Assembly (NCBI GenBank): GCA_947258565.1 | Contig: CAMYJB010000003.1 | Coordinates: forward strand, 124,001-188,000 | Direction: 5' to 3' | Source: an uncultured Woeseiaceae bacterium | GTDB lineage: Bacteria; Pseudomonadota; Gammaproteobacteria; Steroidobacterales; Woeseiaceae | Length of the DNA stretch: 64,000 nt | Shown: positions 10,576-58,003 of the stretch, piece by piece | Numbering within the stretch: position 1 is the stretch's first letter | Layout: each line of letters starts with the position of its first letter | Notes under the pieces: generated by a model | Seen by the model: only the letters and a program-made list of their open reading frames with translations | Database searches by the model: none | What the model was told of the DNA's origin: nothing | Made by a program: the position numbers and the translations under genes

Positions 10576-10615
10576 TTGCGTTATACTAATATAGTGTTAT
10601 ACTTCACTACAACAC
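10576..10615 (+). promoter_or_regulatory. Promoter of the four-gene RND operon with GntR-type operator
   Basis: TTGCGT (10576-10581), a 16-base spacer and TATACT (10598-10603) make a good sigma-70 promoter. Over the -10 box lies an imperfect palindrome at 10594-10615, GTGTTATACTT / CACTACAACAC. It agrees at 19 of 22 positions with the perfect palindrome at 57982-58003 in front of the YtrA-type GntR gene, and both overlap the -10 box of a promoter with 16-base spacing. The rest of the 10359-10575 gap is AT-rich near 10520-10560 and shows no gene. Confidence 0.7.
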
Positions 10616-10629
10616 TGATACTGACACCG

Positions 10630-11721
10630 ATGACCGAGACAATGATTATCAGACACGCCACCACTGCCATGCTCATGCTGTCACTCCTGGCCGCCCTGGC
10701 GTCCGGCTGCGGAGTGGGAGAAGCGAGCGTCGCGGCGGACAGCGAAATGGAGGCAGCAACGCCGATCCCGGTCGAAACGGCCCTGCCCTCACGCGCCGAT
10801 ATTTTCGCGACTTACGAGGCAACGACGACGATAGCATCGGACGCCGATGCCCCCGTGGTGGCGAAAGTCGGTGGTGAAGTCGTGAGGCTGCTGGTCGAGG
10901 AAGGTGATTGGGTCATGGAAGGACAGGCCCTGGCTGAACTCGACGGAGAAAGGCTGCGGCTTGAAATGCTGTCGGCAAAAGCGAATCTCGACCAACTCCG
11001 CAGCGAATACGAGCGCTACACCGACCTGGCTGCGCGCGGCCTGGTCAGCGAGGCGATGTTCGAGAGCCTGAAGTACGATCTCGAAGCGCTCGAAGCCACC
11101 CACGCGCTCGCACGTCTGAATTTCGACTATTCGAAGATCCGGGCACCGATCGCCGGCGTCATCGCTTCCCGGGATATCAAGCTCGGTCAGAGCATCGATG
11201 CCTCCGACGTGGCGTTCCGCATTACCGATACGAGCGAGCTGCTCGCTTACCTGCAGATTCCGCAGGCCGAGCTTGGCAAGTTCTCTGCGGGCCAGTCTGC
11301 GACCCTCACAGTGGACGCGATGCCGGACACGACCTATACCGCAACGATTGCACGAATCAGCCCGACCATCGATATGCGTAACGGCACCTTCCGCGCCACC
11401 GCATTCATCGACAACGGCTCCGGAGAACTCGCCCCGGGCATGTTCGCCCGTTTTTCGATCGCCTACGACAAGCATGCAGACGCGCTCGTCATCCCCCGCG
11501 AAGCTCTGATCGAGGAGGACGATCAGACATCCGTCTATGTCGTGGCCGATGGCGAAGTCAGCCGCAGGACGATCCAGATCGGAATCGAGTCCGGTAATTT
11601 CGTCGAAGTAGTCGGTGGCCTGGGCGGCGACGAAGAGATCGTCGTCACGGGTCAGTCGAGCCTCCGCCACGGCAGCAAGGTGCTTGCCAGCCACAATCCT
11701 CGCCGAAGCTACCCCGGCTGA
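10630..11721 (+). CDS. RND efflux periplasmic adaptor, lipoprotein type (first of two)
   Basis: The 363-residue adaptor begins with a lipoprotein-like signal (LLAALASGC, lipid-modified Cys near residue 27). It then has a lipoyl half (VVAKVGGEVVRLLVEEGDWV), a short helical hairpin (LSAKANLDQLRSEYERYTDLA, about 115-160), the second lipoyl half (IRAPIAGVIASRDIKLGQSI), a beta-barrel and a C-terminal domain ending RHGSKV. Neither ATG 10630 nor ATG 10642 has a good ribosome-binding site; 10630 is used here. It is the first gene of the operon starting at 10576-10603 and is clearly homologous to the adaptor at 11785, so the two probably arose by duplication and may form mixed adaptor rings. Confidence 0.9.
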   Translation: MTETMIIRHATTAMLMLSLLAALASGCGVGEASVAADSEMEAATPIPVETALPSRADIFATYEATTTIASDADAPVVAKVGGEVVRLLVEEGDWVMEGQALAELDGERLRLEMLSAKANLDQLRSEYERYTDLAARGLVSEAMFESLKYDLEALEATHALARLNFDYSKIRAPIAGVIASRDIKLGQSIDASDVAFRITDTSELLAYLQIPQAELGKFSAGQSATLTVDAMPDTTYTATIARISPTIDMRNGTFRATAFIDNGSGELAPGMFARFSIAYDKHADALVIPREALIEEDDQTSVYVVADGEVSRRTIQIGIESGNFVEVVGGLGGDEEIVVTGQSSLRHGSKVLASHNPRRSYPG

Positions 11722-11784
11722 AGCGAGCCGCTTCTTGCCGCGAGCGTTGCGCAGAACAACGGTGCGGCATCGAGGGAGGAGTCT

Positions 11785-12909
11785 ATGAGCCTATTCCGGT
11801 CCGGACCGGCAGTACTGCTGAGCGTCTTGCTGCTCAACGGCTGTGAGTCCGAGAATGCATCAGAGGCCGAGGAAAACGGGGAAGAAACGCCACCGGTTCC
11901 GGTCGAAACCAGCGTACCCGTTCGTGGTGACGTTTACGCCATGTATACGGGCACCGCGCCGATAGAAGCCTTTGCAGAAGCCGATGTCATCGCCAAAGTC
12001 GCCGGCGAGATTCGTGAGATACTTGTCGAGGAAGGCGATGAAGTCAGCAAAGGCCGGGTACTTGCTCGTCTTGACGGTGACAGGCTGCGACTCGAACTGA
12101 ACGAATCCGAGGCGAAGCTGCGCAAGCTGCAGCGTGACTACGAGCGCAACGTCGACCTCCAGGCAAAGGGACTGATCAGCGACGGCGATTTCGAAAAGAT
12201 CAAGTACGAGATGGAAGCGCAGGAGGCGGCATTCAATCTCGCAAGCCTGGAACTCGACTATACGCAAATTCGTGCCCCCATCGACGGCGTCATCGCCGAG
12301 CGGTTCGTCAAACTTGGCAATACGATCAGCGTGGGAGACGCATTGTTCAGGGTGACCAGCCTCGACCCGCTGGTTGCCTACCTGCACGTGCCGGAGCGCG
12401 AATACCGGAATATCAGTCCCGGTCAGCCTGTCGGCATCGACATCGACGCGCTCCCGGACGAGCCGATCGTCGCGGCGGTTAGCCGGGTGAGTCCTGTCGT
12501 CGACCCCCAGACCGGCACATTCAAGATCACCGTAGAAATCGTCGACAAGCAACGACGGATAAAACCCGGCATGTTCGGCCGCATAGGGGTGATCTACGAC
12601 GTGCATGAAAATGCATTGCAGATACCGCGCAGCGCAATCATCGAAGACCAGGGCGCGGCCAGCGTCTTCGTCGTCGAAGGAGATCGCGCCGTCAGGAAGA
12701 CGATCAGCACCGGATACAGCAATCGTGGCATGGTCGAGGTTACGGGCGGTCTCCAGGACGACGAACGGGTCGTCACGGTCGGGCAGGCCAGCCTGAAACA
12801 GGATTCCCGGGTTGCCGTTATCACGCAGGCCGGAGATGCGGAACTTGCCGCCGATACGAGCGAGGAAGGCAGCGAGCAACAGGAGTCGGAAGATGCGGCG
12901 CCTGATTGA
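11785..12909 (+). CDS. RND efflux periplasmic adaptor, lipoprotein type (second of two)
   Basis: The 374-residue protein parallels its neighbour: lipobox LLNGC (Cys 20), VIAKVAGEIREILVEEGDEV, helical hairpin LRKLQRDYERNVDLQAKGL, IRAPIDGVIAERFVKLGNTI, a barrel domain, and a VTVGQASLKQDSRV end. An acidic Glu/Ser/Asp tail (EEGSEQQESEDAAPD) is unusual for the family and lies at the overlap with the next gene. ATG 11785 has a clear GGAGG ribosome-binding site. The last 17 bases overlap the permease start at 12893, which indicates translational coupling. Confidence 0.92.
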   Translation: MSLFRSGPAVLLSVLLLNGCESENASEAEENGEETPPVPVETSVPVRGDVYAMYTGTAPIEAFAEADVIAKVAGEIREILVEEGDEVSKGRVLARLDGDRLRLELNESEAKLRKLQRDYERNVDLQAKGLISDGDFEKIKYEMEAQEAAFNLASLELDYTQIRAPIDGVIAERFVKLGNTISVGDALFRVTSLDPLVAYLHVPEREYRNISPGQPVGIDIDALPDEPIVAAVSRVSPVVDPQTGTFKITVEIVDKQRRIKPGMFGRIGVIYDVHENALQIPRSAIIEDQGAASVFVVEGDRAVRKTISTGYSNRGMVEVTGGLQDDERVVTVGQASLKQDSRVAVITQAGDAELAADTSEEGSEQQESEDAAPD

Positions 12910-15900
12910 GATCGCGACGGAACGCCGGGTGACCGTCGTCATGCTCATCGTCGCGGTGGGCCTGTTCGGAATGGTGTCGTTGTCGAGGCTCAACCTGAAC
13001 CTGTTGCCTGATGTGTCCTACCCGACGCTTACTATCCGTACCGAGCTCGCCGGCGCGGCACCGGTCGAGGTCGAGAACCTCGTCACCAAACCGATCGAAG
13101 AATCTGTCGGCGTCATCCGCAACGTCAGGCTCGTTCGCTCGGTATCCCGGTCGGGACAATCCGACGTCACCCTGGAGTTCCTGTGGGGAACCGACATGGA
13201 CGTGGCTGGCGTCGAGGTCCGCGAAAAGCTCGACCTCCTGTTCCTGCCCCTGGAAGCAAGCCGGCCGTTATTGCTGCGTTTCGATCCTTCGTCCGAACCG
13301 ATAATCCGGCTCGGGCTCCAGTACAAGGAATCGGCCAATGCGGCCGAAAGCACGGAAGCACGGCTGAAATCACTGCGTCGGCTCGCAGAGGACCGCATCA
13401 AGACCGACCTTGAGGCCGAAGAAGGCACTGCCGCCGTCAAGGTCAGCGGTGGACTCGAGGACGAGATACAGATCCAGGTGGATCAGCAAAAGATTTCGCA
13501 GCTCGGCATCGGCATAGAAGAGGTCGCGCAGCGGATCCGGGCGGAAAACGTCAATCTATCCGGCGGTCGCCTGGAAGAGGGAGACCAGCGGTTCCTGGTC
13601 CGAACGCTTAACGAGTTCCAATCGGTATCCGAATTCAGCGACGCTATCGTCGCTTATGTTGCCGGCCGCCCTGTCTATTTGCGTGACATTGCCACGGTTG
13701 AACGTGGCTACAAGGAACGCGAGGCCATTACGCGGGTCAGGGGCCGGGAATCGGTCGAACTGGCCATTTACAAGGAAGGCGATGCGAATACGGTGCAGGT
13801 CGCGAACCGTCTCGAGGCGCGCCTGGAGCGGGTCCGCGAGTCCCTGCCCGGCGAGATGGATCTCGTCAAGATCTACGACCAGTCGCGCTTCATTTCTTCC
13901 GCGGTCGATAACGTGAAGAATGCGGCATTCGTCGGCGGTATTTTTGCAATTATCGTGCTGTACGGCTTTCTACGTGACTCGCGCTCGACGACGATCGTCG
14001 GCATAGCGATCCCGGTTTCCGTTATCGGCACGTTCCTGTTGATGTACACCAATGACATTTCACTGAACATCATGTCGCTGGGCGGCATCGCTCTTGCCGT
14101 CGGCATGCTCGTCGACAACTCCATCGTCGTGCTCGAGAATATTGTGCGCAAGCGTGAACAGGGCGAGGGGATTGTCGAAGCGGCCAAGAATGGCACCTCG
14201 GAAGTCGCGTCGGCCGTCGTTGCGGCCACGCTGACGACGATCGCGGTCTTCTTTCCGATGGTCTTCATCTCGGGCATAGCGGGTCAGCTTTTCCGCGATC
14301 AGGCGCTGACCGTAACATTCGCACTGATCTTTTCGCTCATCGTCGCCCTTACGGTCATCCCGATGCTGTCGTCGCTCGGCGCGGGGAGCCGATATACCGG
14401 TGAGAACGAGGATGACCCGCCCGGGCGTTTCACGCGTATTGTCGCGGCGATCGTCGGCGCATTGGGCGCCGGATTCGTCGCCGTGCGATGGTTTTTCTGG
14501 GCCCTGTTGTGGGTGCCCACGCAGTTTTTCCAGAGGCTTTACGGCGCGATTGCCGCCGTCTATCCGGCACTGCTGCGATGGTCGCTGCACCACCGGGCGG
14601 CAGTTGTCGTTTCCGCGGCTCTCATATTCGCGGGCAGCATGGCTCTCGTACCACGCCTGGGCACTGAACTCATCCCGCAACTGTCGCAGGGCGAATTCAA
14701 TGTGAATCTGAGACTGCCGCCGGGCGCAACGCTGGCGGAGACGGACCGCGCCATTCAGGCCGTGCAGCGCTCTACGCAGGAAATCGATGCCGTGACGCTG
14801 GATTTCTCGGTCGCCGGCACGGGCAACCGACTCGACGCAAACCCTGTCGATGCCGGTGACAACACCGGCACCCTGAGCGTCACCCTGTTATCGGGCGCCG
14901 GACGCGAAGTCGAAAATGCGACAATGAATGCGATGCGCCGGGCATTGTCCGGAATTCCCGGTGTGCAGTACGAATTCTCGCGGCCCTCGCTGCTGAGTTT
15001 TTCGAGCCCGCTGCAAATCGAGATTGCGGGTTACGATCTCGAGCAACTTGCTGGCGTCAGCCGGGCTGTCGTGTCTCAGATGGCAAACGACGGCCGCTTC
15101 GCGGACATCAGGACGACCGTCGAAAACGGTAATCCGGAGATTCAGATCGTCTTCGACCAGGAGCGCGCGGCAAAGCTGGGGCTGGCTGTGCGCGACATAG
15201 CGGATCGGGTCGTGGCCAACGTGCGCGGTGAGGTCGCGACCCGCTATACCTGGCGCGATCGCAAGATCGACGTACTGGTACGCAGCGTTGACACGCGCCA
15301 GTCCAGCATCGACGAGGTGCGGCAGTTGATCGTCAACCCCGCATCGGAGCGGCCGGTCACCCTGGAAGCCGTTGCGACCGTCGACATCGCCAGCGGACCG
15401 GCGGAAATTCGCCGCGTCGCGCAGGAGCGCGTTGCGATCATTACCGCGAACGTGGCTTATGGCGACCTCGGCGCGGCCGCCACCGCGGCTGGCGCGATCA
15501 TCGACCGCATACCGATGCCAGCGGGTGTAAACGCCATCGTCTCGGGGCAAAGCGAGGAAATGCAGGAGTCATTCACGTCCATGCAATTTGCACTGGCGCT
15601 CGCGATCTTTCTCGTATATCTCGTTATGGCGTCGCAGTTCGAGTCACTGATTCATCCGTTCGTAATTCTGTTTACGATTCCGCTCGCGCTGGTGGGCGCT
15701 GTACTTGCCTTGTTCGTGACCGGCACGACGATCAACATCGTGGCGTTTATCGGCGTCATTATGCTCGCCGGCATCGTCGTCAATAACGCTATCGTGCTCG
15801 TCGACCTCATCAACCAGCTGCGTGCCAGAGGCAAGGGTCGCAGCGACGCAATCATGGAAGCCGGCATAGCCCGGCTGCGGCCGATCCTCATGACATCGTT

Positions 15901-16105
15901 GACCACGGCACTCGGTTTGCTGCCGATGGCGCTGGGCTTCGGCGAAGGATCCGAGGTAAGAACGCCGATGGCGATTACGGTAATCGGTGGCTTGCTGGTC
16001 TCGACATTGCTGACGCTTCTCGTAATCCCGGTCGTCTATTCATTGCTGGACCGTAAACGCTGGCCCGCGACCGCGCCGATGGCCGCAACGCAGAGCCGGT
16101 CATGA
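12893..16105 (+). CDS. RND-family efflux permease (second locus, first permease)
   Basis: The 1070-residue HAE1-type RND transporter starts MRRLIEIATERRVTVVMLIVAV, with AGGAG 8 bases before ATG 12893. A longer frame begins at 12812 but would overlap the adaptor gene much more. TM4 carries GMLVDNSIVVLEN and TM10 GIVVNNAIVLVD, so only the first AcrB-type TM4 aspartate is present and the TM10 lysine is Asn. Two large periplasmic loops are of normal length. It lies in one operon with two adaptors upstream and another permease whose ATG overlaps its stop (ATGA at 16102). A heteromultimeric pump, as known for MdtBC, is plausible but not shown by the sequence. Confidence 0.92.
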   Translation: MRRLIEIATERRVTVVMLIVAVGLFGMVSLSRLNLNLLPDVSYPTLTIRTELAGAAPVEVENLVTKPIEESVGVIRNVRLVRSVSRSGQSDVTLEFLWGTDMDVAGVEVREKLDLLFLPLEASRPLLLRFDPSSEPIIRLGLQYKESANAAESTEARLKSLRRLAEDRIKTDLEAEEGTAAVKVSGGLEDEIQIQVDQQKISQLGIGIEEVAQRIRAENVNLSGGRLEEGDQRFLVRTLNEFQSVSEFSDAIVAYVAGRPVYLRDIATVERGYKEREAITRVRGRESVELAIYKEGDANTVQVANRLEARLERVRESLPGEMDLVKIYDQSRFISSAVDNVKNAAFVGGIFAIIVLYGFLRDSRSTTIVGIAIPVSVIGTFLLMYTNDISLNIMSLGGIALAVGMLVDNSIVVLENIVRKREQGEGIVEAAKNGTSEVASAVVAATLTTIAVFFPMVFISGIAGQLFRDQALTVTFALIFSLIVALTVIPMLSSLGAGSRYTGENEDDPPGRFTRIVAAIVGALGAGFVAVRWFFWALLWVPTQFFQRLYGAIAAVYPALLRWSLHHRAAVVVSAALIFAGSMALVPRLGTELIPQLSQGEFNVNLRLPPGATLAETDRAIQAVQRSTQEIDAVTLDFSVAGTGNRLDANPVDAGDNTGTLSVTLLSGAGREVENATMNAMRRALSGIPGVQYEFSRPSLLSFSSPLQIEIAGYDLEQLAGVSRAVVSQMANDGRFADIRTTVENGNPEIQIVFDQERAAKLGLAVRDIADRVVANVRGEVATRYTWRDRKIDVLVRSVDTRQSSIDEVRQLIVNPASERPVTLEAVATVDIASGPAEIRRVAQERVAIITANVAYGDLGAAATAAGAIIDRIPMPAGVNAIVSGQSEEMQESFTSMQFALALAIFLVYLVMASQFESLIHPFVILFTIPLALVGAVLALFVTGTTINIVAFIGVIMLAGIVVNNAIVLVDLINQLRARGKGRSDAIMEAGIARLRPILMTSLTTALGLLPMALGFGEGSEVRTPMAITVIGGLLVSTLLTLLVIPVVYSLLDRKRWPATAPMAATQSRS

Positions 16106-19100
16106 GACATACGGAGATCGCGCTGCGGCGACCCGTAACGACGGTAGTCGTCTTCGTCGCTCTTGCGCTCGTCGGTCTGATCGCGTCGCGTCTGCTGCCT
16201 CTGGAAAAATTTCCGGATATCGAATTCCCCGGGATCTTCATCCAGATCCCCTACGAAGGTTCGTCGCCGGAAGAGATCGAGCGCCTCATAACGCGTCCCG
16301 TCGAAGAGGCGCTCGCGACGCTGTCGGGTGTCGAGCAGATGTTCTCGACATCCACCGAGAACGATTCGCAGATCTTCCTGCAGTTCGACTGGGACCAGAA
16401 CATGGGCGCAAAGGGCATCGAGGCACGCTCCAAGGTCGATGGCATCCGGCATCAACTGCCCGACGATATTCGCCGCGTCTTCGTCTTTACGGGGTCATTG
16501 GGAGACCAGCCCGTGCTGCAGCTGCGCATCTCGAGCGAGCGCGACCTGTCCGACAGTTACGATCTGCTCGACCGGATGCTGAAACGTCGTCTCGAGCGCA
16601 TCGACGGGGTGTCCCGCGTCGAACTGCACGGCGTGGACCCGCGGGAAATCCGGATTCTTCTCGATGCCGACATGATCGCGGCTTACGGTATCGACGTCGC
16701 TGACCTCCGCGACGTGCTGACGCGTAGCAATTTCGCGGTCAACGCAGGCAGGCTCACCGCGGGCGACCAGCGGCTGAGCGTGCGCCCGCGCGGAGAGTTC
16801 ACTTCGATCGAGGATATTCGCAACCTCGTTGTATCCGCCAACGGCTTGCGCCTCGGGGATATCGCGCGCATCGAGCTGCGAACGCCGGAACGAAATTACG
16901 GTCGGCATCTCGATCGCGACTACGCAATCGGCGTGGCGGTAAACAAGACGACAGGCTCCAATCTCGTCGACGTGACCGACCGCGTAATGGAGGAAGTAGA
17001 GGCAGTTGCCAAATTGCCGCAGATGCGCGGGATAAACATCTTCCCGCTGGACAACGCCGGGGACAGCGTTCGCAAATCCCTTTCCGACCTGCTGAATGCG
17101 GGGCTGCTCGGCGGCCTGCTTGCCGTCATCGTCCTGTATCTGTTCCTGCGCCAACTCTCCACGACGCTGATCGTCATCTCTTCCGTGCCTTTCTCGTTGT
17201 TGATTACGCTGGGCGCCCTGTATTTCGCGGGACTGTCGCTGAACATCCTGTCGATGATGGGACTGATGCTCGCCATCGGTATGCTCGTCGACAATGCTGT
17301 CGTCATTACCGAGAGCATTTTCAGGCATCGCGCGACGGACAAGGAAAGACCCTTCAATGCAACCCTGAAGGGTGTGCGTGAGGTCGGGACCGCAGTCATC
17401 GCGGGTACGGCGACAACCATCATCGTCTTTGCACCGATCATTGTCGGCACCAAGAACGACATCATGGTCTTTCTCACGCATGTGGCAGTGACGATTATCG
17501 TCGCCCTGCTCGCCTCGCTCCTGATTGCGCAGACGCTCGTGCCGATGCTTGCGGCCCGCATTCGCCTGCCGAAGCCGCCGCAAAGCGGCGCACTGATTCC
17601 CCGGCTGACCCGTGCCTATACGAAAAGTCTGCGCTGGATCATCGGCCATCCGTGGTGGACGGGACTCGGCATCGTCATTACCTGCGTCATCGGCGTATTG
17701 CCGTTGGCGCTCCAGGTCGTCAAGTTCGACATGTTCCCCCAGGATGTGGGGCGGCGACTGTTCATGCCCTATCATATCGAGGGACAGCATCCCGTGAAGC
17801 GTGTCGAGGCCGCCGTCGACACGATAGAGGAGTACCTGTTCTCGCGGCAGGAAGAGTTCAATATACGCTCCGTTTACAGCTACTTCGACCAGGGCCAGGC
17901 ACAGTCGACACTGCTATTGACAGAAGAGGACGATGCCACCCTGTCGACGAAGGAGATCATCGAACGCATCGAGGCGGACATGCCGACGCTCGCCATCGGC
18001 AAACCGACCTTCCAGTTCGATCAGCAAGGCGGCGGCGAGGGATTCACGGTCCAGATCTCCGGCGACTCGACGGAACTGCTGAACGAACTGGGCGCCGAGG
18101 TCGCCCGCGCCTTGTCGTCAATCGAAGGGCTCAAGGACGTGCGGTCCGATGCGGAAGCCGGCGAAAAGGAGGTGCGCGTCGCGATAGACAGAGACCGTGC
18201 AGCCATAGTCGGACTGACGGCATCGGACATCGCACAGACGATCGCCATCGCCATGCGCGGCGAGAACCTGCGGGAGTTTCGCGGGGAGACGGGCGAGATC
18301 GAGGTCCGGCTCGCATTCCGGGAAGACGATAAGCAGAACGTCGAACAGCTTGCCAACCTGCCCCTGTTCACGCCGGACGGCAACCGCATAAATCTCGGCA
18401 GTGTTGCGTCACTCCATGTGGGGCAGTCGCCAGCGACGATCCGGCGCACGGACCGGCAGACGGCCGTCATTCTCTCCGGCAACCTCGAGGACGACTTCAG
18501 CGCAGAAGACATAAGGCCGGACGTCAAGAGCCTGATGGACCAGATCGAGTTGCCGCCGGGTTACAGCTGGAAGGAGGGCCGCGGTTTCGAACGGACGGAC
18601 GAAACCCAGGCCATGATGGTTACCAATATCGTGCTCGGCGTCGCATGTATCTTCCTGGTCATGGCCGCCTTGTTCGAGTCCCTCCTGTTGCCGTTTTCGA
18701 TCATCCTCGGATCGATTCTGTTCTCGATCTTCGGTGTGTTCCTGTTTTTCGCCGCAACGGGAACGACTTTTTCGTTCATGGCCATGATCGGCATCATGAT
18801 TCTCATCGGCGTCGTGGTCAACAATGGCATCGTGCTCGTCGATCACGTCAACAACCTGCGCGGCGAAGGGCTGTCGCGCAGCGATGCGATTCTCGAGGCG
18901 GGCCGGGACAGGTTGCGGCCGATCCTCATGACCGTCGCGACGACGATCGTCGGCCTGGCGCCGCTGGCGCTCGGTACCACCCAGATCGGTGGTGACGGCC
19001 CTCCCTATTATCCGATGGCCCGCGCCATTATCGGCGGTCTGGCATTTTCCACCATCGTGTCGTTGTTCCTGGTGCCTGCCCTGTATATCTACTTCGACAA

Positions 19101-19182
19101 GCTGGCGGCGTGGGGCCGCAAGGTCATGCGAACCGCACGCCGCCGCAGCGCCGCCGTCCCGGGGGCGGTTACCGATTCCTGA
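16102..19182 (+). CDS. RND-family efflux permease (second locus, second permease)
   Basis: The 1026-residue RND permease (MRHTEIALRRPVTTVVVFVALAL start) has two six-helix bundles, two periplasmic loops, TM4 GMLVDNAVVITES and TM10 GVVVNNGIVLVDHVN. It is the last gene of the adaptor-adaptor-permease-permease operon. It differs clearly from its upstream neighbour, so this is not a recent tandem copy. Its 3' end overlaps the 3' end of the convergent GlyGly-CTERM gene by 14 bases. No TolC-like channel gene follows, so the outer-membrane partner must be encoded elsewhere. Confidence 0.92.
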   Translation: MRHTEIALRRPVTTVVVFVALALVGLIASRLLPLEKFPDIEFPGIFIQIPYEGSSPEEIERLITRPVEEALATLSGVEQMFSTSTENDSQIFLQFDWDQNMGAKGIEARSKVDGIRHQLPDDIRRVFVFTGSLGDQPVLQLRISSERDLSDSYDLLDRMLKRRLERIDGVSRVELHGVDPREIRILLDADMIAAYGIDVADLRDVLTRSNFAVNAGRLTAGDQRLSVRPRGEFTSIEDIRNLVVSANGLRLGDIARIELRTPERNYGRHLDRDYAIGVAVNKTTGSNLVDVTDRVMEEVEAVAKLPQMRGINIFPLDNAGDSVRKSLSDLLNAGLLGGLLAVIVLYLFLRQLSTTLIVISSVPFSLLITLGALYFAGLSLNILSMMGLMLAIGMLVDNAVVITESIFRHRATDKERPFNATLKGVREVGTAVIAGTATTIIVFAPIIVGTKNDIMVFLTHVAVTIIVALLASLLIAQTLVPMLAARIRLPKPPQSGALIPRLTRAYTKSLRWIIGHPWWTGLGIVITCVIGVLPLALQVVKFDMFPQDVGRRLFMPYHIEGQHPVKRVEAAVDTIEEYLFSRQEEFNIRSVYSYFDQGQAQSTLLLTEEDDATLSTKEIIERIEADMPTLAIGKPTFQFDQQGGGEGFTVQISGDSTELLNELGAEVARALSSIEGLKDVRSDAEAGEKEVRVAIDRDRAAIVGLTASDIAQTIAIAMRGENLREFRGETGEIEVRLAFREDDKQNVEQLANLPLFTPDGNRINLGSVASLHVGQSPATIRRTDRQTAVILSGNLEDDFSAEDIRPDVKSLMDQIELPPGYSWKEGRGFERTDETQAMMVTNIVLGVACIFLVMAALFESLLLPFSIILGSILFSIFGVFLFFAATGTTFSFMAMIGIMILIGVVVNNGIVLVDHVNNLRGEGLSRSDAILEAGRDRLRPILMTVATTIVGLAPLALGTTQIGGDGPPYYPMARAIIGGLAFSTIVSLFLVPALYIYFDKLAAWGRKVMRTARRRSAAVPGAVTDS

Positions 19183-22161: not shown

Positions 22162-22194
22162 CTCGCTGGGCAAACTACTGAAAGGAGGTGATCC

Positions 22195-46630: not shown

Positions 46631-46631
46631 A

Positions 46632-49222: not shown

Positions 49223-49400
49223 CGGGACAGCCCTGACGCGTCACCCCCGGCGCAACGCCCCTCGGCCCAACTTTGCGGGCTGGAAATAATCGCGGCGCCG
49301 ATTTCGTCCAAGTGCTAAACTTGGGATATAACAACAACAGGTGCCCGCGGCGCCAGGCGGTTTCTGCGTCCGGCCCCGTTACACCCTGGAAATCAGGACA

Positions 49401-51455: not shown

Positions 51456-51558
51456 CACCGCGCCACCTTCACTCCGTTTCGCCATCATGCTTAAATATGC
51501 CTTCCCGTTAACCGTGGCGTGCACCAGTCAGTAGCGCCCTTCTGCCAGAAGTGAATCC

Positions 51559-51933: not shown

Positions 51934-51936
51934 GCC

Positions 51937-52395: not shown

Positions 52396-52398
52396 ACG

Positions 52399-52617
52399 TC
52401 AAAGCTTATTGATCTCCTCGCGAAGGTCAATCCTGTTTTCAGTGACGATCCTCTCCAGCACTTTGATCCGCTCTTCGAGGGCGTCCAGTTGCGCCTGCGT
52501 CTCGTCCGCATGCGCATCTTTTTCCTCCTTTCGGTGGCGGAGCTTCAGATACTGCTGCACGGTGTTCGCAGCGAGCACGATCGCGACGATACAGACCACA
52601 TAAAACATCGTGTTCAT
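52399..52617 (-). CDS. PspB-like envelope stress protein (second copy)
   Basis: The 72-residue protein has one N-terminal membrane helix (MFYVVCIVAIVLAANTV) and a cytoplasmic coiled coil (LDALEERIKVLERIVTENRIDLREEI), the PspB plan. AGGGGA precedes ATG 52617 at about 7 bases. It follows the second pspC gene and is clearly similar in layout to the copy at 53324. It probably binds PspA or PspC at the inner membrane during envelope stress. Confidence 0.8.
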   Translation of the reverse strand: MNTMFYVVCIVAIVLAANTVQQYLKLRHRKEEKDAHADETQAQLDALEERIKVLERIVTENRIDLREEINKL

Positions 52618-52643
52618 CAACACTTCCCCTGGTTCATGGTCGG

Positions 52644-53033
52644 TCAGTCTTTCAGCCGGTCAAACTCACGATCCAGCTGGTAGCGAGAGGACGTCACGTA
52701 CTTCTCGAGCCGCGCGAGACGCCTGTCCAGCGACTTGAACCGGCTGCGCACGTCGCTCATCGTCTGCGAGGGCGACGAACGCACCGCCCGGTGGAATTCG
52801 GGATCCACCGGACGCGGATTATCCTTCACCGAAATGCTGGGTGTCAGGAATACCAACGCAAGGTAGCCGAGCATCGTCAGCGGCATCGTAAAAAACGCGA
52901 TGACCGTTAGCAAGCGCGTCACGCACAGGTTGAAGCCGAAATAATCCGCTACTCCTGCGCAGACGCCGCCAAGCATCGCTTTGTCTGCGTTGCGGTAGAA
53001 GCGTCGCTCGTGCATGGAAGCCTGGCTGCTCAT
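52644..53033 (-). CDS. PspC-domain protein (second copy)
   Basis: The 129-residue protein carries a PspC domain (KAMLGGVCAGVADYFGFNLCVTRLLTVIAFF, residues 17-47), two hydrophobic segments and a C-terminal basic coiled region (FKSLDRRLARLEKYVTSSRYQLDREFDRL). It resembles E. coli PspC in length. Its ATG overlaps the stop of the first pspC-like gene by 4 bases. It is likely an inner-membrane stress sensor that recruits PspA. Confidence 0.88.
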   Translation of the reverse strand: MSSQASMHERRFYRNADKAMLGGVCAGVADYFGFNLCVTRLLTVIAFFTMPLTMLGYLALVFLTPSISVKDNPRPVDPEFHRAVRSSPSQTMSDVRSRFKSLDRRLARLEKYVTSSRYQLDREFDRLKD

Positions 53034-53323
53034 TGTTTTCTCCGATATTGTCTCCGCTCGCGTCGCCAGAACTCATACTCTGAGCGTGCACCCGAATAGA
53101 CCAGGGGCTTTTCGCGAATTAGCAAGGTCGCTGCAATGTAGACGGCTGCTGTCAGCCAGAAAAATACGAGCAGGCTGATCACCGCCAGGACACGCACGGC
53201 CCCGACCTGGAGATTGAAGCGATCGGCCAGCCCGGCGCAGACGCCGAATATCCAGCCGTTTTCCCGATCACGGTAGAAACCTCGGAATGGACCGTAGTCA
53301 GAATTCCAGGTGCCTTGCCTCAT
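53030..53323 (-). CDS. PspC-domain protein (first copy)
   Basis: The 97-residue protein contains a PspC domain (ENGWIFGVCAGLADRFNLQVGAVRVLAVISLLVFF) and a second helix (LTAAVYIAATLLI), with a short basic tail instead of the long coiled region of the other copy. It starts directly after the stop of the pspB-like gene and overlaps the next pspC by 4 bases. The two copies have diverged strongly. Confidence 0.85.
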   Translation of the reverse strand: MRQGTWNSDYGPFRGFYRDRENGWIFGVCAGLADRFNLQVGAVRVLAVISLLVFFWLTAAVYIAATLLIREKPLVYSGARSEYEFWRRERRQYRRKQ

Positions 53324-53548
53324 CTATTGTCTCCTGTGTGTCGTTGAATCGTCGTCGAGAATCCGCTCCAGCGTCTCGATTCGTTCCTCGAGCCGTTGTG
53401 AGAGGTTCCACAGTTCCTCGAGCATGCGCTCGTCATCGCCGGAGATTTCGCGCGTCTGCTTCCACTTCGTAATGAAGTAGAAGATGACGATCAGCGGCGC
53501 GAGGACCGTAAAAAAAAGAATGACTGCAAGTGTCATCAGCGCATTCAT
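53324..53548 (-). CDS. pspB: PspB-like envelope stress protein (first copy)
   Basis: The 74-residue protein has an N-terminal membrane helix (LAVILFFTVLAPLIVIFYFIT), then WKQTRE and a cytoplasmic coiled coil (RMLEELWNLSQRLEERIETLERIL), very close to the PspB pattern including its leucine-zipper-like part. It sits 6 bases after pspA, in the standard psp gene order. Confidence 0.88.
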   Translation of the reverse strand: MNALMTLAVILFFTVLAPLIVIFYFITKWKQTREISGDDERMLEELWNLSQRLEERIETLERILDDDSTTHRRQ

Positions 53549-53554
53549 TCCCGC

Positions 53555-54241
53555 TTACTCCGTATCCGCGGCTTGCCTGGCCTCACCCTGTATGCGGCGT
53601 TTCAGTTCGTCAAATTCCTTTTGTACGGACTCTTCCGCCTCCAGGCTTGCGAACTCGTGGTTCAGGTCTTTCGGCAGTCCCAGATCGTAGGCTTCTATAC
53701 GGCCCTCGACGTCGTCGATTCGCCGCGTGTATTGCTCGAAACGAACCATGGCGTCGTCGATCTTGTAGTCGTGGATCTTCTTGCGCGCGGCCAGCCGGCT
53801 GTTGGCTGTCTTGTGCCGTGCGAGCAGCGCCTTCTGTCGAGCCTTGGCATCCTGCAGCTTTGCTTCGAGCCGGCCGATGTCGTCGTTGAGCTTGGCGAGC
53901 CCTTCGTCGACGGCTGCATAGTCGGCCTTGACGCCGTCAGCCGCGGACTGCACCCGCGATTTCTCGACCAGCGCCGCTTTCGCCAGGTCTTCCCTGCCCT
54001 TGCGCAGGGCAAGCTCCGCTTTCTCTTCCCAGTCCTGCAATTCGGACTCGAGCGACTCCAGCTTGCGGTTCAGGTCTTTTTTGTCGGCAATCGATCGCGC
54101 GGCCGCGGAGCGAACCTCGACGAGTGTGTCCTCCATCTCCTGGATCATCAGCCGAACGATTTTCTCGGGATCCTCCGCCTTGTCCAGGATGGCGTTGATG
54201 TTGGAGTTCACGATGTCGCTGAATCTCGTGAAAATGCCCAT
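53555..54241 (-). CDS. pspA: Phage shock protein A
   Basis: The 228-residue all-helical PspA/IM30/ESCRT-III family protein begins MGIFTRFSDIVNSNINAILDKAEDPEKIVRLMIQEMED (amphipathic helix 0 and helix 1), followed by the long hairpin to about residue 140 and helices 4-5 at the end. It coats damaged inner membrane and, in the resting state, holds the activator PspF inactive. ATG 54241 is the family start; ten in-frame codons upstream are not needed. A sigma-54 promoter lies 40-55 bases upstream. It is the first gene of a six-gene operon. Confidence 0.95.
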   Translation of the reverse strand: MGIFTRFSDIVNSNINAILDKAEDPEKIVRLMIQEMEDTLVEVRSAAARSIADKKDLNRKLESLESELQDWEEKAELALRKGREDLAKAALVEKSRVQSAADGVKADYAAVDEGLAKLNDDIGRLEAKLQDAKARQKALLARHKTANSRLAARKKIHDYKIDDAMVRFEQYTRRIDDVEGRIEAYDLGLPKDLNHEFASLEAEESVQKEFDELKRRIQGEARQAADTE

Positions 54242-54280
54242 GATTTGTCCTCTTGATGGCGTGAATGTCATCTGAATTGT

Positions 54281-54296
54281 TGCAGTATCCGTGCCA
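54281..54296 (-). promoter_or_regulatory. Sigma-54 promoter of the psp operon
   Basis: On the minus strand TGGCACG, four bases GATA, then CTGCA matches the -24/-12 consensus TGGCACG-N4-TTGCA at all but one position, with GG and GC exactly spaced. It lies about 40 bases before the pspA ATG. The 130 bases between it and the divergent pspF are AT-rich and should contain the PspF enhancer sites and the pspF promoter. Confidence 0.88.
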
Positions 54297-54430
54297 GACC
54301 GCCTGCATGCTCTACAATCGACTGATTTATATCAATAAATTGGAAATCCCCGGGCCTTTTTCTGGCACCGCTGTCTGGTTATTTTTACTATTTAATCGCA
54401 TCTTTAACCAACATATGGCAAAATTGACCA

Positions 54431-55447
54431 ATGGCAGACGAACGCCCGGTACAACCCATCATCGGCGAAGCGCCCGTCTTCCTGGAGATGCTGGAGCACG
54501 TATCCCGCGCTGCGCCGCTGTCGAAGCCCGTGCTCGTCGTCGGCGAGCGCGGCACGGGCAAGGAACTCGTTGCCTCGCGGCTGCACTATCTTTCCCATCG
54601 ATGGGAGTCGAGCGTCGTCAAGGTCAATTGCGCCGCCCTGACGGAGACGATCCTGGAGTCCGAGCTCTTCGGTCACGAGGCAGGCGCGTTCACGGGGGCG
54701 GTCAGGACGCACGTCGGCCACTTCGAACGAGCCGACGGCGGCACCCTGATCCTCGACGAACTCGCGACGATCTCTCTGCGCATGCAGGAGAAGATTCTCA
54801 GGGTGATTGAATACGGGGAGATCCAGCGCGTTGGCGGCAGCGAGACCTTGCGGGTCGATGTGAGAATCGTCGGGTCGACGAACGCCGATCTGCGGCAGCT
54901 GGCCGCCGCAGGAAGTTTCCGTCAGGATCTCCTCGACAGGCTTGCGTTCGACGTCATTACCGTACCGCCACTGCGCGAGCGCGTCGAAGACATCCTGCCG
55001 CTCGCTTACGCGTTCGCGATCAACATGGCGAGCGAGCTGAAACGCGAACTGTTTGCCGGATTCGGCCCGCGCGCTTCCTCTTCACTATTGCAGTACGACT
55101 GGCCGGGCAACGTGCGCGAGCTCAAGAATACGGTCGAGCGATCAGTTTACCGTGAGCCGGACCCGGGTAAGCTCATTACGCGCATCGCATTCGATCCTTT
55201 TGATGCGCCGTTCCAGCCGCCGCCAATTGCCGCGGCATCGAAACCCGCGACCCGGCAAAAGCGCCCGCCATTGTTGCCGATGCGCCTGACGGAACGCCTC
55301 GAGGAGACAGAAAAGGAGTTCCTGCGAGCGGCGCTTGAAAAGTCCCGGTTCAACCAGACGATGGCGGCGGAATTACTCAACCTCAGCTATCACCAGTTCC
55401 GCGGCAAGCTGCGCAAATACGGCATTAGCGCTCAGCCAGAGCAATAG
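54431..55447 (+). CDS. pspF: Psp operon transcriptional activator, sigma-54 dependent
   Basis: The 338-residue enhancer-binding protein has no N-terminal receiver domain, as expected for PspF. The AAA+ domain has Walker A GERGTGKE, the sigma-54-contacting GAFTGA loop, Walker B TLILDEL and the arginine-finger region around LRQLAAAGSFRQDLLDRL. The C-terminal helix-turn-helix is around ALEKSRFNQTMAAELLNLSYHQFRGKL. It drives the divergent psp promoter and is inhibited by PspA binding to its AAA+ domain. The ATG is 190 bases from the pspA start. Confidence 0.94.
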   Translation: MADERPVQPIIGEAPVFLEMLEHVSRAAPLSKPVLVVGERGTGKELVASRLHYLSHRWESSVVKVNCAALTETILESELFGHEAGAFTGAVRTHVGHFERADGGTLILDELATISLRMQEKILRVIEYGEIQRVGGSETLRVDVRIVGSTNADLRQLAAAGSFRQDLLDRLAFDVITVPPLRERVEDILPLAYAFAINMASELKRELFAGFGPRASSSLLQYDWPGNVRELKNTVERSVYREPDPGKLITRIAFDPFDAPFQPPPIAAASKPATRQKRPPLLPMRLTERLEETEKEFLRAALEKSRFNQTMAAELLNLSYHQFRGKLRKYGISAQPEQ

Positions 55448-55471
55448 AAGCGGTCTCTCCAGTGGCCGTTT

Positions 55472-56389
55472 CTAGGAATCATCCCGATATCGGCGCACGT
55501 AGATTGCTGCGGTTGCGAACAATCCGCAAACCACGATGCCGGCCCATACGGACGGACTGAGGAGAAACTTGCCTATGTCGATATGGGCGAGCAGGCTGAC
55601 CGCCTCCTCATTGACTTTCATACGCTCTTCGTCGAAGAAATGCTCGATATCCATTTCACGGAACAACGGGATCATCTCGCCACGCCCGAATACGGCACTC
55701 GCAAACAGCTTCGACCTGAAGAAAATCCACTCAATGATGGGGATGATAATGAGGGGCATGAAGGCCATCAGCAGCGGCGACCGCTTGGTAAATGCCGACA
55801 CGAACAGGAACCAGCCGATGAGCGGTGACAGCCACACGGCGCTCGCGACGGTAACGATCAATGCTGCTGCCCAGCTATCGAACAGTGGCACGGATCCCCA
55901 GATCAGGTGCGCCGCGTTGCCACCCTTGATCGCGACCCAGGCGGTTGTGATTACCAGGTTCACGAGATGTGTAACGATAATCGCCGCAACCGTTACCAGC
56001 GGCAACACGAAAATCGCCGTTAGCAATTTCGATACGACGGTCTCGGCATCGGTGATCGGCAGGGACCGCCAGAAGAGGATGCTCTTGTCCTTACGCTCGG
56101 CGTACAGGCAATCGAGCGTGTAAAACGTCGTCAGGATCGCGAGTGCAAACAGGAACACCCAGGACGTGCCGAGGAAGAAGACCGTCAGCGCGACTCGCCG
56201 CTCAGCATCTCCGGCTATGTTCGATGCTCCGAACAGCGCCATGTTGACTTCTTTATCGAACGCGGAAACCGTTACCATCCCGGCCAGCGAGACCAGCGAA
56301 ACGATCACCGCGATCGCAATCGGAGTCACGTAGATCGAGCGATGCTCCCAGATCTCGCGCCTGATCAAAGCCAGTTGGTGTCCGATCAT
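55472..56389 (-). CDS. ABC-2 type transporter permease
   Basis: The 305-residue protein has six hydrophobic segments (first at about 20-43, last at 280-297), a large loop between helices 1 and 2, and conserved IREIWEHRS / YAERKDKSILFWRSLPITDAE features of ABC-2 permeases. Its ATG overlaps the stop of the ATPase gene by 4 bases. It forms an exporter with that ATPase; the substrate is unknown. It is the last gene of the GntR operon, whose regulator type (YtrA) is usually tied to envelope-stress or antibiotic-responsive ABC exporters. Confidence 0.88.
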   Translation of the reverse strand: MIGHQLALIRREIWEHRSIYVTPIAIAVIVSLVSLAGMVTVSAFDKEVNMALFGASNIAGDAERRVALTVFFLGTSWVFLFALAILTTFYTLDCLYAERKDKSILFWRSLPITDAETVVSKLLTAIFVLPLVTVAAIIVTHLVNLVITTAWVAIKGGNAAHLIWGSVPLFDSWAAALIVTVASAVWLSPLIGWFLFVSAFTKRSPLLMAFMPLIIIPIIEWIFFRSKLFASAVFGRGEMIPLFREMDIEHFFDEERMKVNEEAVSLLAHIDIGKFLLSPSVWAGIVVCGLFATAAIYVRRYRDDS

Positions 56390-57249
56390 GCTGCTGCTCC
56401 TTTGACCTTGGCGACGAACAGGTCCGCGACCGATGGCGTGTGCAGCTCGCCGAGCGTTTCCAGGCGCTCACGATCAGGCTTCTCGAACAGCATGACCCGC
56501 TTGCCGAAGACGTCACGTTCCGCGATCGGGCCAATACCGCGGGCCTGGTCCGCGTTATCGCCGGAGGTCAGGAGTTCCACGTAGTCCTGGACCAGGGAAT
56601 CCATGGAAGCATCCAGAATGATCCGCCCTTCGTTGATGAACATGATGTCGGTCAGAATATTCTCGATCTCCTCCACCTGGTGGGTCGTAACGAGGATGGT
56701 GCGCTCCTCGTCGAAATAATCCGACAGCAGGTTTGCGTAAAATTCCTTGCGAAAGATGATGTCGAGACCGAGCGTCGGCTCGTCGAGCACCAGCAAACGG
56801 GCATCGATGGCGGCGATGATCGCGAGGTGCAGCTGCGTGACCATGCCTTTCGAAAGCTCGCGAACCCTGGAGTCCCTGCGGGTGTTCACCTTGGTCTTCC
56901 CGAGCAGCGCCTCGGCCTTCTCGCGGGAAAAGTTGGGGTGCGTGGACTCGACGAACTCGAGCAGCTGTGACACCCGGATCCAACGCGGCAAGACGGCGAC
57001 GTCCGCGATGAAGCAAATGTCCTGCATGAGTTCCTTACGCTGCCGGAACGGATCCAGGCCGAGCACGGAGAGGTCGCCCTCACAATCGGTGAGCCCGAGC
57101 ACGGCTTTGAGCAAAGTCGTCTTGCCGGCACCGTTAGGGCCGATAAGGCCCATGATCCTGCCCTTTTCGATATCAAAGCTGACGTTGTCGACGGCACAGA
57201 CTTTGCCGAATCGCTTTGATACTCCGCGAGCGGTAACAAGGCTACTCAT
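56386..57249 (-). CDS. ABC transporter ATP-binding protein
   Basis: The 287-residue ATPase has Walker A GPNGAGKTT, Q-loop region, signature LSKGM (instead of LSGGQ), Walker B LLVLDEPTLGLD, and the H-loop LVTTHQVEEIE. The modified signature is common in YtrB-like ABC-2 ATPases. ATG 57249 lies inside the last codons of the GntR gene (8-base overlap), so translation is coupled. A 36-codon in-frame extension upstream overlaps the regulator and is not believed. Confidence 0.92.
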   Translation of the reverse strand: MSSLVTARGVSKRFGKVCAVDNVSFDIEKGRIMGLIGPNGAGKTTLLKAVLGLTDCEGDLSVLGLDPFRQRKELMQDICFIADVAVLPRWIRVSQLLEFVESTHPNFSREKAEALLGKTKVNTRRDSRVRELSKGMVTQLHLAIIAAIDARLLVLDEPTLGLDIIFRKEFYANLLSDYFDEERTILVTTHQVEEIENILTDIMFINEGRIILDASMDSLVQDYVELLTSGDNADQARGIGPIAERDVFGKRVMLFEKPDRERLETLGELHTPSVADLFVAKVKGAAA

Positions 57250-57625
57250 CGTCGCTCCCTTTTTCTGTCGATTCGGCAGACCGCGCCAGAAGCTCTCCGG
57301 CATCGAGTCCCAGCCGATCGATCGTCTCGAGCACCTTCGGCCATTCTTTTTCGACAAAGCGCCGACGTTCGTCCTTGGTTAACTGCTTGCGCGCTCCATC
57401 GGTAACAAACATGCCGCGGCCGCGTTTTTTCTCGACCAGGCCTTCGTCAACGAGTTCCTGGTACCCCTTCAGCACTGTGAGAGGGTTGAGCCGGTACTCA
57501 GCAGCCACGTTGCGAACCGATGGCAGGGCGTCACCATCGCCAAGCACGCCCTCGAGGATCATCTCGACCACACGATCGCGCAGCTGACGATAAATCGGTA
57601 AGTCTTCGCTCCACTTCGGATCCAT
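57242..57625 (-). CDS. GntR-family regulator, YtrA type
   Basis: The 127-residue protein consists of the GntR winged helix (IYRQLRDRVVEMILEGVLGDGDALPSVRNVAAEYRLNPLTVLKGYQELVDEGLVEKKRGRGMFV, residues 10-75) plus a short helical C-terminus of about 45 residues. That short tail is the mark of the YtrA subfamily, which controls adjacent ABC transporters as a dimer. It should repress its own operon through the palindrome at 57982-58003 and perhaps the RND operon at 10.6 kb. ATG 57625 has GAGAG a few bases ahead. Confidence 0.9.
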   Translation of the reverse strand: MDPKWSEDLPIYRQLRDRVVEMILEGVLGDGDALPSVRNVAAEYRLNPLTVLKGYQELVDEGLVEKKRGRGMFVTDGARKQLTKDERRRFVEKEWPKVLETIDRLGLDAGELLARSAESTEKGSDDE

Positions 57626-57678
57626 CAATCTCTCGCTGTGTACCGACCAATGGTCAAAGTGCGCGCCCCGCCCTGACG

Positions 57679-57712
57679 GCAAAAAGGCGCCGGCCCGCGG
57701 TCGCAGGCCGGC
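57679..57712 (-). terminator. Terminator-like hairpin inside the GntR/ABC operon
   Basis: On the minus strand GCGCCGGCC, a 10-base loop and GGCCGGCGC are followed by CTTTTT, a good intrinsic terminator. It lies between the 55-residue ORF and the GntR gene. No convincing promoter is visible between it and the GntR start, so it may limit how much transcript from the operator-controlled promoter reaches the regulator and transporter. Confidence 0.75.
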
Positions 57713-57780
57713 GCAACAACTCCGTCGCTACCTTACTCGCATTGGTGACGGAAAATGAATCACCTGGAAAAATCATTGCG

Positions 57781-57948
57781 CTAGCCATCGCCGCGCACCC
57801 GTACGGACTGGTAGGGAATTCGGTCGGACCGGTCGTCGGCGCCAATCGAAGCGGGACCTGCCTGGCCGGCGATCAAGGCAGTCGCCATGAGCAACATGAT
57901 CGTGATGCTCACGATTTCATTCAGGTACTGGGCCATATGCTTTTTCAT
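57781..57948 (-). CDS. Small membrane protein ahead of the GntR/ABC genes
   Basis: The 55-residue product has a basic start MKKHMAQYLNE, one hydrophobic helix (IVSITIMLLMATALIAG) and a polar tail ending QSVRVRGDG. GGGGAG stands 6 bases before ATG 57948. It is the first reading frame after the palindromic operator/promoter at 57982-58021. It could be a transporter accessory or stress peptide; I do not recognise it. Confidence 0.65.
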   Translation of the reverse strand: MKKHMAQYLNEIVSITIMLLMATALIAGQAGPASIGADDRSDRIPYQSVRVRGDG

Positions 57949-57981
57949 TGCCGGTCTCCCCAATCGGGTCTTACTGAACTA

Positions 57982-58003
57982 GTGTTATAGTTGACTATAA
58001 CAC
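57982..58003 (-). promoter_or_regulatory. Perfect palindromic operator and promoter of the GntR/ABC operon
   Basis: GTGTTATAGT, two bases TG, ACTATAACAC is a perfect 10+10 palindrome. On the minus strand it overlaps the -10 box TATAGT (57994-57999), with TTGTAT (58016-58021) 16 bases upstream as -35. The same site with three changes covers the -10 box of the RND operon at 10594-10615. A YtrA-type GntR dimer is the natural candidate to bind it. Confidence 0.8.

Follow-up and report, generated by a model that had tools for sequence, protein, structure and literature searches.

A palindromic operator shared by a YtrA-type gntR/ABC locus and dispersed export genes in Woeseiaceae

Two export loci and their promoters

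The window, a 64-kb stretch of a 3.48-Mb Woeseiaceae genome, contains two export loci (Table 1). The first is a four-gene operon (10630-19182) in which two adaptor genes stand together with two permease genes, the combination of an RND tripartite system. An outer-membrane channel gene is absent from this operon, and no OEP match was found on its contig. In the second locus, on the opposite strand, a 55-codon ORF is followed by a hairpin resembling an intrinsic terminator and then by gntR, behind which the ATPase and permease genes lie head to tail with overlapping ends. The earlier note on this DNA had tied operator 1 to a GntR/ABC operon; the locus is the right one, but its first gene is the 55-codon ORF and a terminator precedes gntR.

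Table 1. Features of the two loci, in window positions
Feature	Position	Strand	Characteristics
RND-operon core promoter	10576..10603	+	TTGCGT (10576-10581), 16 bp, TATACT (10598-10603)
Operator 2	10594..10615	+	GTGTTATACTTCACTACAACAC; 19/22 identical to operator 1; covers -10 box of RND operon promoter
Membrane-fusion protein 1 (RND periplasmic adaptor)	10630..11721	+	Pfam HlyD_3 1.3e-27; NCBIfam RND_mfp
Membrane-fusion protein 2	11785..12909	+	Pfam HlyD_D23 7.1e-27; NCBIfam RND_mfp
RND permease 1	12908..16105	+	Pfam ACR_tran 2.1e-252 on 12965-16105; NCBIfam: no equivalog cut-off reached
RND permease 2	16102..19182	+	Pfam ACR_tran 6.8e-206
ABC-2-type permease	55472..56389	-	Pfam ABC2_membrane_5 1.5e-4, under curated cut-off
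ABC transporter ATPase	56386..57249	-	Pfam ABC_tran 1.1e-21
gntR	57242..57625	-	YtrA-type GntR regulator, 127 aa
Conserved RNA element	57680..57758	-	TCCGTC...GACGGA hairpin, invariant TAGCGACGGA, then intrinsic-terminator stem and T run
Small leader ORF	57781..57948	-	55 codons, one hydrophobic segment (MKKHMAQYLNEIVSITIMLLMATALIAGQA...)
Operator 1	57982..58003	-	GTGTTATAGT-TG-ACTATAACAC; perfect 22-bp palindrome (10+2+10), GTG-N16-CAC; over -10 box of leader-ORF/gntR/ABC promoter
gntR-locus core promoter	57994..58021	-	TTGTAT (58021-58016), 16 bp, TATAGT (57999-57994)

The earlier note overlooked two features between operator and gntR: a conserved gene for a small membrane protein, and a terminator-linked RNA element that is near-invariant at the genus level. 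An ORF of the small-leader type is present in 73/78 leaders, and its codon-position differences (191/114/355 over 21 pairs) are a coding signature; the ORF gave no Pfam match up to E 0.1. The RNA element scores 84.8 bits with a model of which this copy is itself a row. Scores exceed 70 bits in all nine searched genomes of this genus and reach at most 30.3 bits in nine others, and among 150 first-look candidates scored per genome in these 18 genomes no extra copy away from the gntR locus rose above 30.3 bits. Two strong matches in one of these assemblies (G041, on C25 and C38) resemble one locus split between contigs. A known RNA family was rejected for the element, as no Rfam family scored above its gathering score and the best, PtaRNA1, reached 20.6 bits against a threshold of 47.

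The sequence agrees with the earlier description of operator 1 as a perfect 10+2+10 palindrome, of operator 2 as its match at 19 of 22 bases, and of both as overlying a -10 box with a -35 box 16 bases upstream. This geometry recurs in relatives. A TTG lies 16 bp before the palindrome-internal -10 box in 62/63 fetched promoters of the gntR, RND and prc classes. The operator occupies the same position in 15/15 fetched Woeseiaceae gntR promoters, all of which have TTG at the -35 place (background rate 0.019), and 23/24 promoters of the RND class have TTGC there. The tolC promoters are in another register, with TTG at 16 bp in 0/28.

The operator in the genome and the family

Within three mismatches, operators 1 and 2 are the sole matches in the window; the window scan found no operator of the 22-bp type at the padR-MFP-RND genes (5506-10358), a separate group upstream of the RND operon. 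Both sites of the earlier note are real and are the only two in the window, but the genome holds four, not two. They precede the GntR/ABC locus, the MFP-MFP-RND-RND operon, tolC and a small secreted-protein gene. Six OEP channel-gene frames lie elsewhere in the genome, and tolC (C13) alone is preceded by an operator. The secreted protein (~140-200 aa, encoded just behind prc) has a fixed C-terminal RQMYRTDI-like tail.

To follow the sites through the family, we took 113 of them, from 27 genomes, one by one: 100 were fetched, 12 were attributed to gntR by coordinates, and one (G003:C93:28) was left out of the fetched and assigned sites. The sequence of the latter equals that of the prc-class site of the same genome, and the two may be duplicate assemblies of a single site. 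Two sites (L263, L296) were assigned by hand, of which L263 was afterwards checked; further sites in G127 and G239, with three mismatches, were left out of the fetched set. The operator lies before gntR and before tolC in 27/27 genomes each, and before the RND operon and the prc-linked gene in 24/27 each. The earlier note had made its proposal depend on conservation of the RND site, and the site is conserved. In the three genomes that lack it (G011, G018, G033) no close homologue of the first RND gene was found, the best identity being 26-28%; it recurs in two of the four more distant genomes with fetched sites (G117, G280).

Nine further sites fall beyond the four classes, and six of these precede other adaptor-pump operons (MacAB-like or MFP-RND). 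No nameable export gene lies downstream of L272 (G010) and L288 (G030), with three mismatches each, L092 (G018), L253 and L254 (G280), L256 (G140), or L258 and L259 (G248); these may be chance matches, or their role is unassigned. Over the whole family scan (101 genomes), 349 sites stand against 25 reversed-control matches, and in the 87 genomes bearing a gntR orthologue 335 stand against 14.

The regulator and known YtrA systems

The GntR protein has an N-terminal winged-helix domain (Pfam PF00392, 50.4 bits against a cut-off of 27). In its structural model (127 aa, mean pLDDT 90.4) two C-terminal helices span residues 78-104 and 109-122; the fold matches 3tqn, 2ek5, 2du9 and 6sbs, with 3tqn and 2ek5/2du9 as the nearest solved structures. 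YtrA regulators are defined by a reduced C-terminal domain of ~50 residues with two helices (PMC4494728). The gene shares an operon with an ABC transporter, and a long palindromic operator with conserved GT/AC far from the centre lies upstream of gntR in 77/80 loci (the best 80 of 210 relatives); the three loci without a site have just 60, 141 and 321 bp upstream. The earlier label, YtrA-type, fits on all of these counts. YtrA regulons are described in PMC4494728 mostly as a single ABC operon, and the present set differs, with four sites here that recur in 24-27 of the 27 family genomes.

Known systems resemble this one in part. Bacillus subtilis YtrA is a GntR-family repressor with an ABC operon, ytrGABCDEF, that likewise encodes a small transmembrane protein, YtrG; the same repressor also controls ywoBCD, an operon that includes an MFS transporter (PMC12772383). 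The likeness of the leader ORF to YtrG extends to two traits, a place within the operon and one hydrophobic segment. B. subtilis differs in being Gram-positive, hence without TolC, and in operator repeats 13 bp apart (PMC4730234). The motif of a Xanthomonas citri YtrA-like regulator, GGTG-N16-CACC (quoted in PMC6746942), has the spacing of GTG-N16-CAC here. In Staphylococcus aureus, the YtrA-subfamily repressor PmtR is encoded beside the ABC exporter Pmt and is released by exported peptides, a possible model for the signal here; however, microarray data suggested binding at the pmt promoter only (PMC5354552). YtrASa of Sulfolobus acidocaldarius acts from a site over the transcription start and represses two loci for membrane proteins, one of them its own operon and the other distant; it differs in its 14-bp core operator, its two targets and its archaeal host (PMC6746942).

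Proposed regulon and competing readings

The most likely reading, to which we give a probability of roughly 0.8, is an autoregulated YtrA-type GntR repressor of a dispersed multi-pump export regulon. We infer from the sites that the GntR protein binds the operator and represses rather than activates. A GntR dimer would bind GTGTTATA-N6-TATAACAC (GTG-N16-CAC) and block RNA polymerase at the core promoters of its own locus (small membrane protein, gntR, ABC ATPase and permease), of the RND pump operon without a channel gene, of tolC, a potential source of the missing channel, and of the prc-linked secreted protein. A signal or exported substrate would relieve repression, raising exporter, pump and channel in concert; some relatives would add further adaptor-pump operons (MacAB-like or MFP-RND) that lie behind the same operator. 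Because five more outer-membrane channel frames are present in the genome, the RND pump may work with a channel other than TolC. The earlier proposal that one regulator coordinates ABC and RND export gains support from site conservation and class-wide co-occurrence with gntR, which suggest such a link; its scope was too narrow, as tolC and the prc-linked gene share the operator.

It is unlikely, though worth weighing, that the regulator activates, as reported for an Acinetobacter GntR-ABC system not stated to be YtrA-type (PMC13104710), or that its main target is the small-ORF transcript, while read-through or their own promoter serves gntR/ABC. Against activation, three promoter classes carry the palindrome over the -10 box, where a repressor typically sits. 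The small-ORF version draws on the terminator-like RNA element found between operator and gntR in 50/81 leaders, through which transcription must read if the operator is to control gntR/ABC. A separate promoter is disfavored by 11/42 leaders, where it could not fit behind the T run because only 13-20 nt remain before gntR begins. This small-ORF version is partly compatible with the repressor model.

It is considerably less probable that a different transcription factor binds the palindrome and controls the gntR/ABC, pump and tolC genes. This genome encodes only two GntR-domain proteins. Among 185 genomes of the class, a site is present in 10/12 with a gntR orthologue vs 3/173 without (Fisher p 1.8e-12, genome kinship not corrected for); the reversed control matched in 15/185 genomes and in none of the 12 orthologue-bearing ones. 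The only site in G112, G265 and G105 precedes gntR itself, the operator has the YtrA form GTG-N16-CAC (PMC6746942), and the DNA-binding part of GntR and the operator are both almost unchanged. Another factor would account for four genomes (G034, G044, G088, G098) with one to three sites each, in two of these genomes before tolC, and no detected orthologue; these assemblies are 72-85% complete, which makes loss of gntR from the assembly the likely cause. In G044 a site lies ~40 bp from the start of the adaptor homologue. G042, 84% complete, has gntR and one site. Fourteen family genomes have no detected orthologue, and tolC was sought in 10 of them, all but G029, G032, G035 and G038. In five of the seven with readable DNA upstream of tolC, the operator is absent there; the two that keep it are G034 and G098 (completeness 85% and 73%).

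That operators 1 and 2 are alike by chance, through letters shared by AT-rich palindromes over TATA-like -10 boxes, or as a functionless spread repeat, can be dismissed, the earlier note having already called chance unlikely: 0/100 shuffles gave as many window matches, just four sites vs none for the reversed control occur in 3.48 Mb, the family and class-wide scans point the same way, and the matching positions of the sites in 24-27 of the 27 family genomes already refute it.

Beyond the repressor model, we tentatively consider a wider role, in which the YtrA regulator would be a gammaproteobacterial master repressor of TolC-dependent export, coupling the shared channel to any pump that gains its operator (RND, MacAB-like, MFP-RND). 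The leader would then encode the conserved small membrane protein, and its RNA element, near-invariant in this genus, would serve there as an attenuator or 3'-UTR-derived small RNA; the small protein or the prc-linked protein may take part in sensing or feedback.

The locus adds two features for which no known family was found, the small membrane protein (Pfam) and the RNA element (Rfam). The candidate order to which this lineage belongs, Woeseiales, accounts for 1-22% of marine-sediment 16S sequences, according to PMC7082342. For a regulator class described mostly with a single ABC operon, the operator sites give a short target list. Pumps whose operon lacks a channel gene have to rely on a channel encoded elsewhere, and it is often unclear how the two supplies are kept in balance; in this case a pump operon and a channel gene share one operator.

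Palindromes in the window and its genome

An earlier note had proposed that two palindromes in the window imply one regulator coordinating ABC and RND export, and both lie at the positions, and have the sequence, that it described. The -10/-35 geometry ascribed to them is present as well, and the view that their likeness is not due to chance agrees with shuffling of the window, in which an equal number of matches arose in 0 of 100 shuffles. No third site occurs in the window at ≤3 mismatches. The note had named random copies across the genome as counter-evidence; a scan of the genome (3,478,202 bases, 53 contigs, 99.69% complete) with the degenerate palindrome (≤2 mismatches) yields four sites, and the reversed pattern none.

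Features of the window around the two operators
Feature	Position	Strand	Description
Operator before leader ORF, gntR and ABC locus	57982-58003	-	Perfect 22-bp palindrome; TATAGT with TTGTAT 16 bp upstream
Operator before RND operon	10594-10615	+	TATACT with TTGCGT 16 bp upstream
gntR	57242-57625	-	YtrA-type GntR regulator
Leader ORF	57781-57948	-	Small; one hydrophobic segment
RNA element	57680-57758	-	3' of the leader ORF
RND operon	10630-19182		No channel gene within
padR-MFP-RND gene group	5506-10358		Separate group next to the operator-bearing RND operon, on its upstream side; no such operator

The additional site on contig C13 lies directly upstream of a TolC gene, whose product matches Pfam OEP and the NCBIfam TolC family above its cut-off and scores 409.6 bits against the NCBIfam TolC equivalog (cut-off 495). 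The one on contig C22 is flanked by a prc/Tsp-type protease gene and by an ORF of 177 codons, the start of which, judged by eye, resembles a signal peptide. Six frames of the genome match OEP channels, on C2, C5, C8, C11, C13, and C30; the window's own contig, C3, has none, and of the six only tolC on C13 carries the operator. The GntR domain is matched twice, by the window's gntR and in a 308-aa frame on C12.

Conservation of the sites and their association with gntR

Among 113 sites in 27 family genomes, 100 were fetched and assigned by tblastn with the window genome's proteins, two of them (L263 and L296) by hand; 12 of the other 13 were given to gntR from coordinates and one was left without a class. 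The palindrome precedes gntR and tolC in all 27 genomes (28 tolC sites) and the prc-linked gene, a gene behind prc for a small, putatively secreted protein, in 24. The RND site, whose conservation in relatives the earlier proposal presupposed, is retained in 24 of the 27; in the remaining three (G011, G018, and G033) no gene closely homologous to the first RND gene was found (best identity 26–28%).

Nine of the 113 sites fall outside these four classes. Three precede MacAB-like genes, in the order adaptor, ABC ATPase, third ORF (G011 L084, G033 L282, and G050 L313), three precede other MFP-RND genes (G018 L090, G025 L102, and G033 L285), one a 188-aa ORF (L092), and two, with 3 mismatches each, genes of other kinds (L272 and L288). 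Pfam identifies the adaptor in L282, L285, L090, and L102 and the ATPase in L282 and L084; the remaining labels, including MacAB-like, rest on tblastn and ORF reading.

In the fetched family promoters, the spacing from an upstream TTG to the -10 hexamer within the palindrome is exactly 16 bp in 15/15 gntR, 23/24 RND, and 24/24 prc-class promoters, against a background rate of TTG of 0.013–0.019 in these classes. Because the palindrome covers the -10 box in these three classes, the arrangement argues for repression. None of the 28 tolC promoters has TTG in this register; ACTG directly precedes the palindrome in 24 of them, and 13 have TTGACTG at a constant position; here the palindrome likely overlaps a promoter whose boxes are tentative.

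Across 101 family genomes, the pattern at ≤3 mismatches finds 349 sites vs 25 in the reversed control; the 87 genomes with a gntR orthologue account for 335 vs 14, with a median of four sites per genome (a single one in G042). In the reduced genus g5, whose nine genomes all lack the orthologue, 7 sites vs 10 reversed is chance level. G031, 94% complete and also without the orthologue, has no site at ≤3 mismatches, and four other such family genomes (72–85% complete) have one to three each.

A class sample of 185 genomes contains 12 with an orthologue at E ≤1.9e-25, a limit chosen after the gap to the next match (2.6e-16) was seen; the weakest, G127, has a stop codon within the match. Sites at ≤2 mismatches occur in 10 of these 12 vs 3 of 173 without the orthologue (one site each; Fisher p 1.8e-12, with genomes treated as independent and kinship uncorrected), and at least two sites in 6/12 vs 0/173. 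Reversed-control matches were counted in 15 of the 185 genomes, none among the 12. The two exceptions with an orthologue, G218 and G239, have weaker sites before gntR (3 and 4 mismatches).

Of the 14 family genomes without the orthologue, tolC was looked at in 10, plus G042, and seven of the 10 had readable DNA upstream of it. The operator is absent there in G031, G004, G015, G023, and G026 (nearest at least 5 mismatches) and present in G034 (85% complete) and G098 (73%), whose gntR, not found, may be missing from the incomplete assemblies. A search of G031 and five g5 genomes for the RND operon adaptor gave no close homologue (29% identity at best).

The gntR leader and its regulator

The operator-to-gntR distance is 142–601 nt in the 77 relatives with an operator found among the best 80 of 210; the nearest named records among these 80 are Woeseiaceae and unclassified gammaproteobacterial metagenome genomes, with up to 91% identity. 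The leader ORF, with its NEIVSLxVMLLMxVALVAGQ-like motif, is present in 73 of 78 leaders. The motif is visible by eye in L152, L169, and L176, where its frame meets no stop within the leader, and has a shorter form in L166; L177 is a short leader. Differences by codon position (191, 114, and 355 in 21 pairs) form the substitution pattern of a translated gene. The product, which has no Pfam match, would be a small membrane or secreted protein, whose occurrence at this locus is reminiscent of B. subtilis YtrG.

The RNA element comprises TCCGTC...GAGTAAAGTAGCGACGGA, then a terminator-like stem and a T run; GAGTAAAGTAGCGACGGA is near-invariant, and the element is present in 50 of 81 leaders. Of 17 predicted pairs, 7 show two-sided changes, without exception within the terminator stem; sequence variation in the first hairpin is insufficient for such a test. 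Scored with a model to which several of the scored genomes supplied rows, the element exceeds 70 bits in 9/9 genomes of the window's genus searched, always at the gntR locus, and reaches at most 30.3 bits in nine genomes outside it. No Rfam family matched above its gathering score. In 11 of 42 leaders gntR would be most easily reached by read-through because the T run ends only 13–20 nt upstream of its start. The element may be an attenuator, or it may be a 3'-UTR small RNA. Leaders without it (L120, L127, L132, L142, and L151) share a CCTGTTACTAT-like stretch roughly 70–100 bp before gntR that looks like an extended -10 promoter of gntR itself.

The predicted regulator (127 aa) combines a GntR domain with two modeled C-terminal helices (mean pLDDT 90.4), in agreement with the YtrA subfamily as outlined in PMC4494728. 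Its best fold and sequence matches include 3tqn (Coxiella) and 2ek5/2du9 (C. glutamicum). The DNA-binding part is nearly invariant in 22 aligned sequences, as is the operator, whose spacing equals the GTG-N16-CAC of a Xanthomonas citri YtrA-like regulator, as quoted in PMC6746942.

A predicted export regulon

Suvorova and colleagues describe the majority of YtrA regulons as comprising one ABC operon only (PMC4494728). B. subtilis YtrA controls two operons, one of which encodes the small membrane protein YtrG (PMC12772383). The accessible portions of an HpaR1 paper (PMC4730234) describe no regulon of this export type; those of a Woeseiales transcript study (PMC7451513) mention tolC transcripts and neither GntR nor such a regulon. 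In a body of literature with few subscription papers or preprints, no paper combines the whole words YtrA, RND, and TolC, and titles and abstract beginnings of the matches listed describe no YtrA-type regulon of ABC, RND, and TolC; the supplementary tables of PMC4494728 may hold a prediction of it.

Beyond the family, all three sites of G117 (same order, different family) are assigned, to gntR, tolC, and an RND operon directly behind prc. G280 has sites at gntR, tolC, and prc-RND and two without an explained gene; G140 at gntR, a tolC homologue (41% identity), and a MacAB-like operon, with a fourth unexplained; G248 two at gntR, others at a tolC homologue (36%) and an adaptor-RND group, and two unexplained. 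G112, G265, and G105 (62% complete) have the gntR site only. The RND operon lies behind prc with the operator between them in G117 (L249), G280 (L252), and the family member G007 (L095), where the RND and prc places coincide and a short ORF and 361 bp separate the site from the adaptor gene. This linkage suggests a single ancestral locus for both site types, prc-linked and RND, in the other Woeseiaceae; the prc-linked site may be a remnant left after the pump operon moved away.

The prc-linked protein (139–198 aa; e.g. L006:8044-8577), encoded behind the same operator, has a signal-peptide-like start and a fixed RQMYRTDI-like C-terminal tail at 24/24 family sites of its class (23 by search rule, L083 by eye). 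Because its gene sits behind that of a tail-specific protease, we guess that it is a putative substrate or partner of Prc.

The most likely role of the GntR protein is that of an autoregulated repressor controlling an export regulon. Since the RND operon lacks a channel gene and tolC is under the same operator, TolC could provide the channel for the pump; five other channel frames in the genome are possible alternatives. By analogy with PmtR (PMC5354552), an exported substrate may release the repressor.
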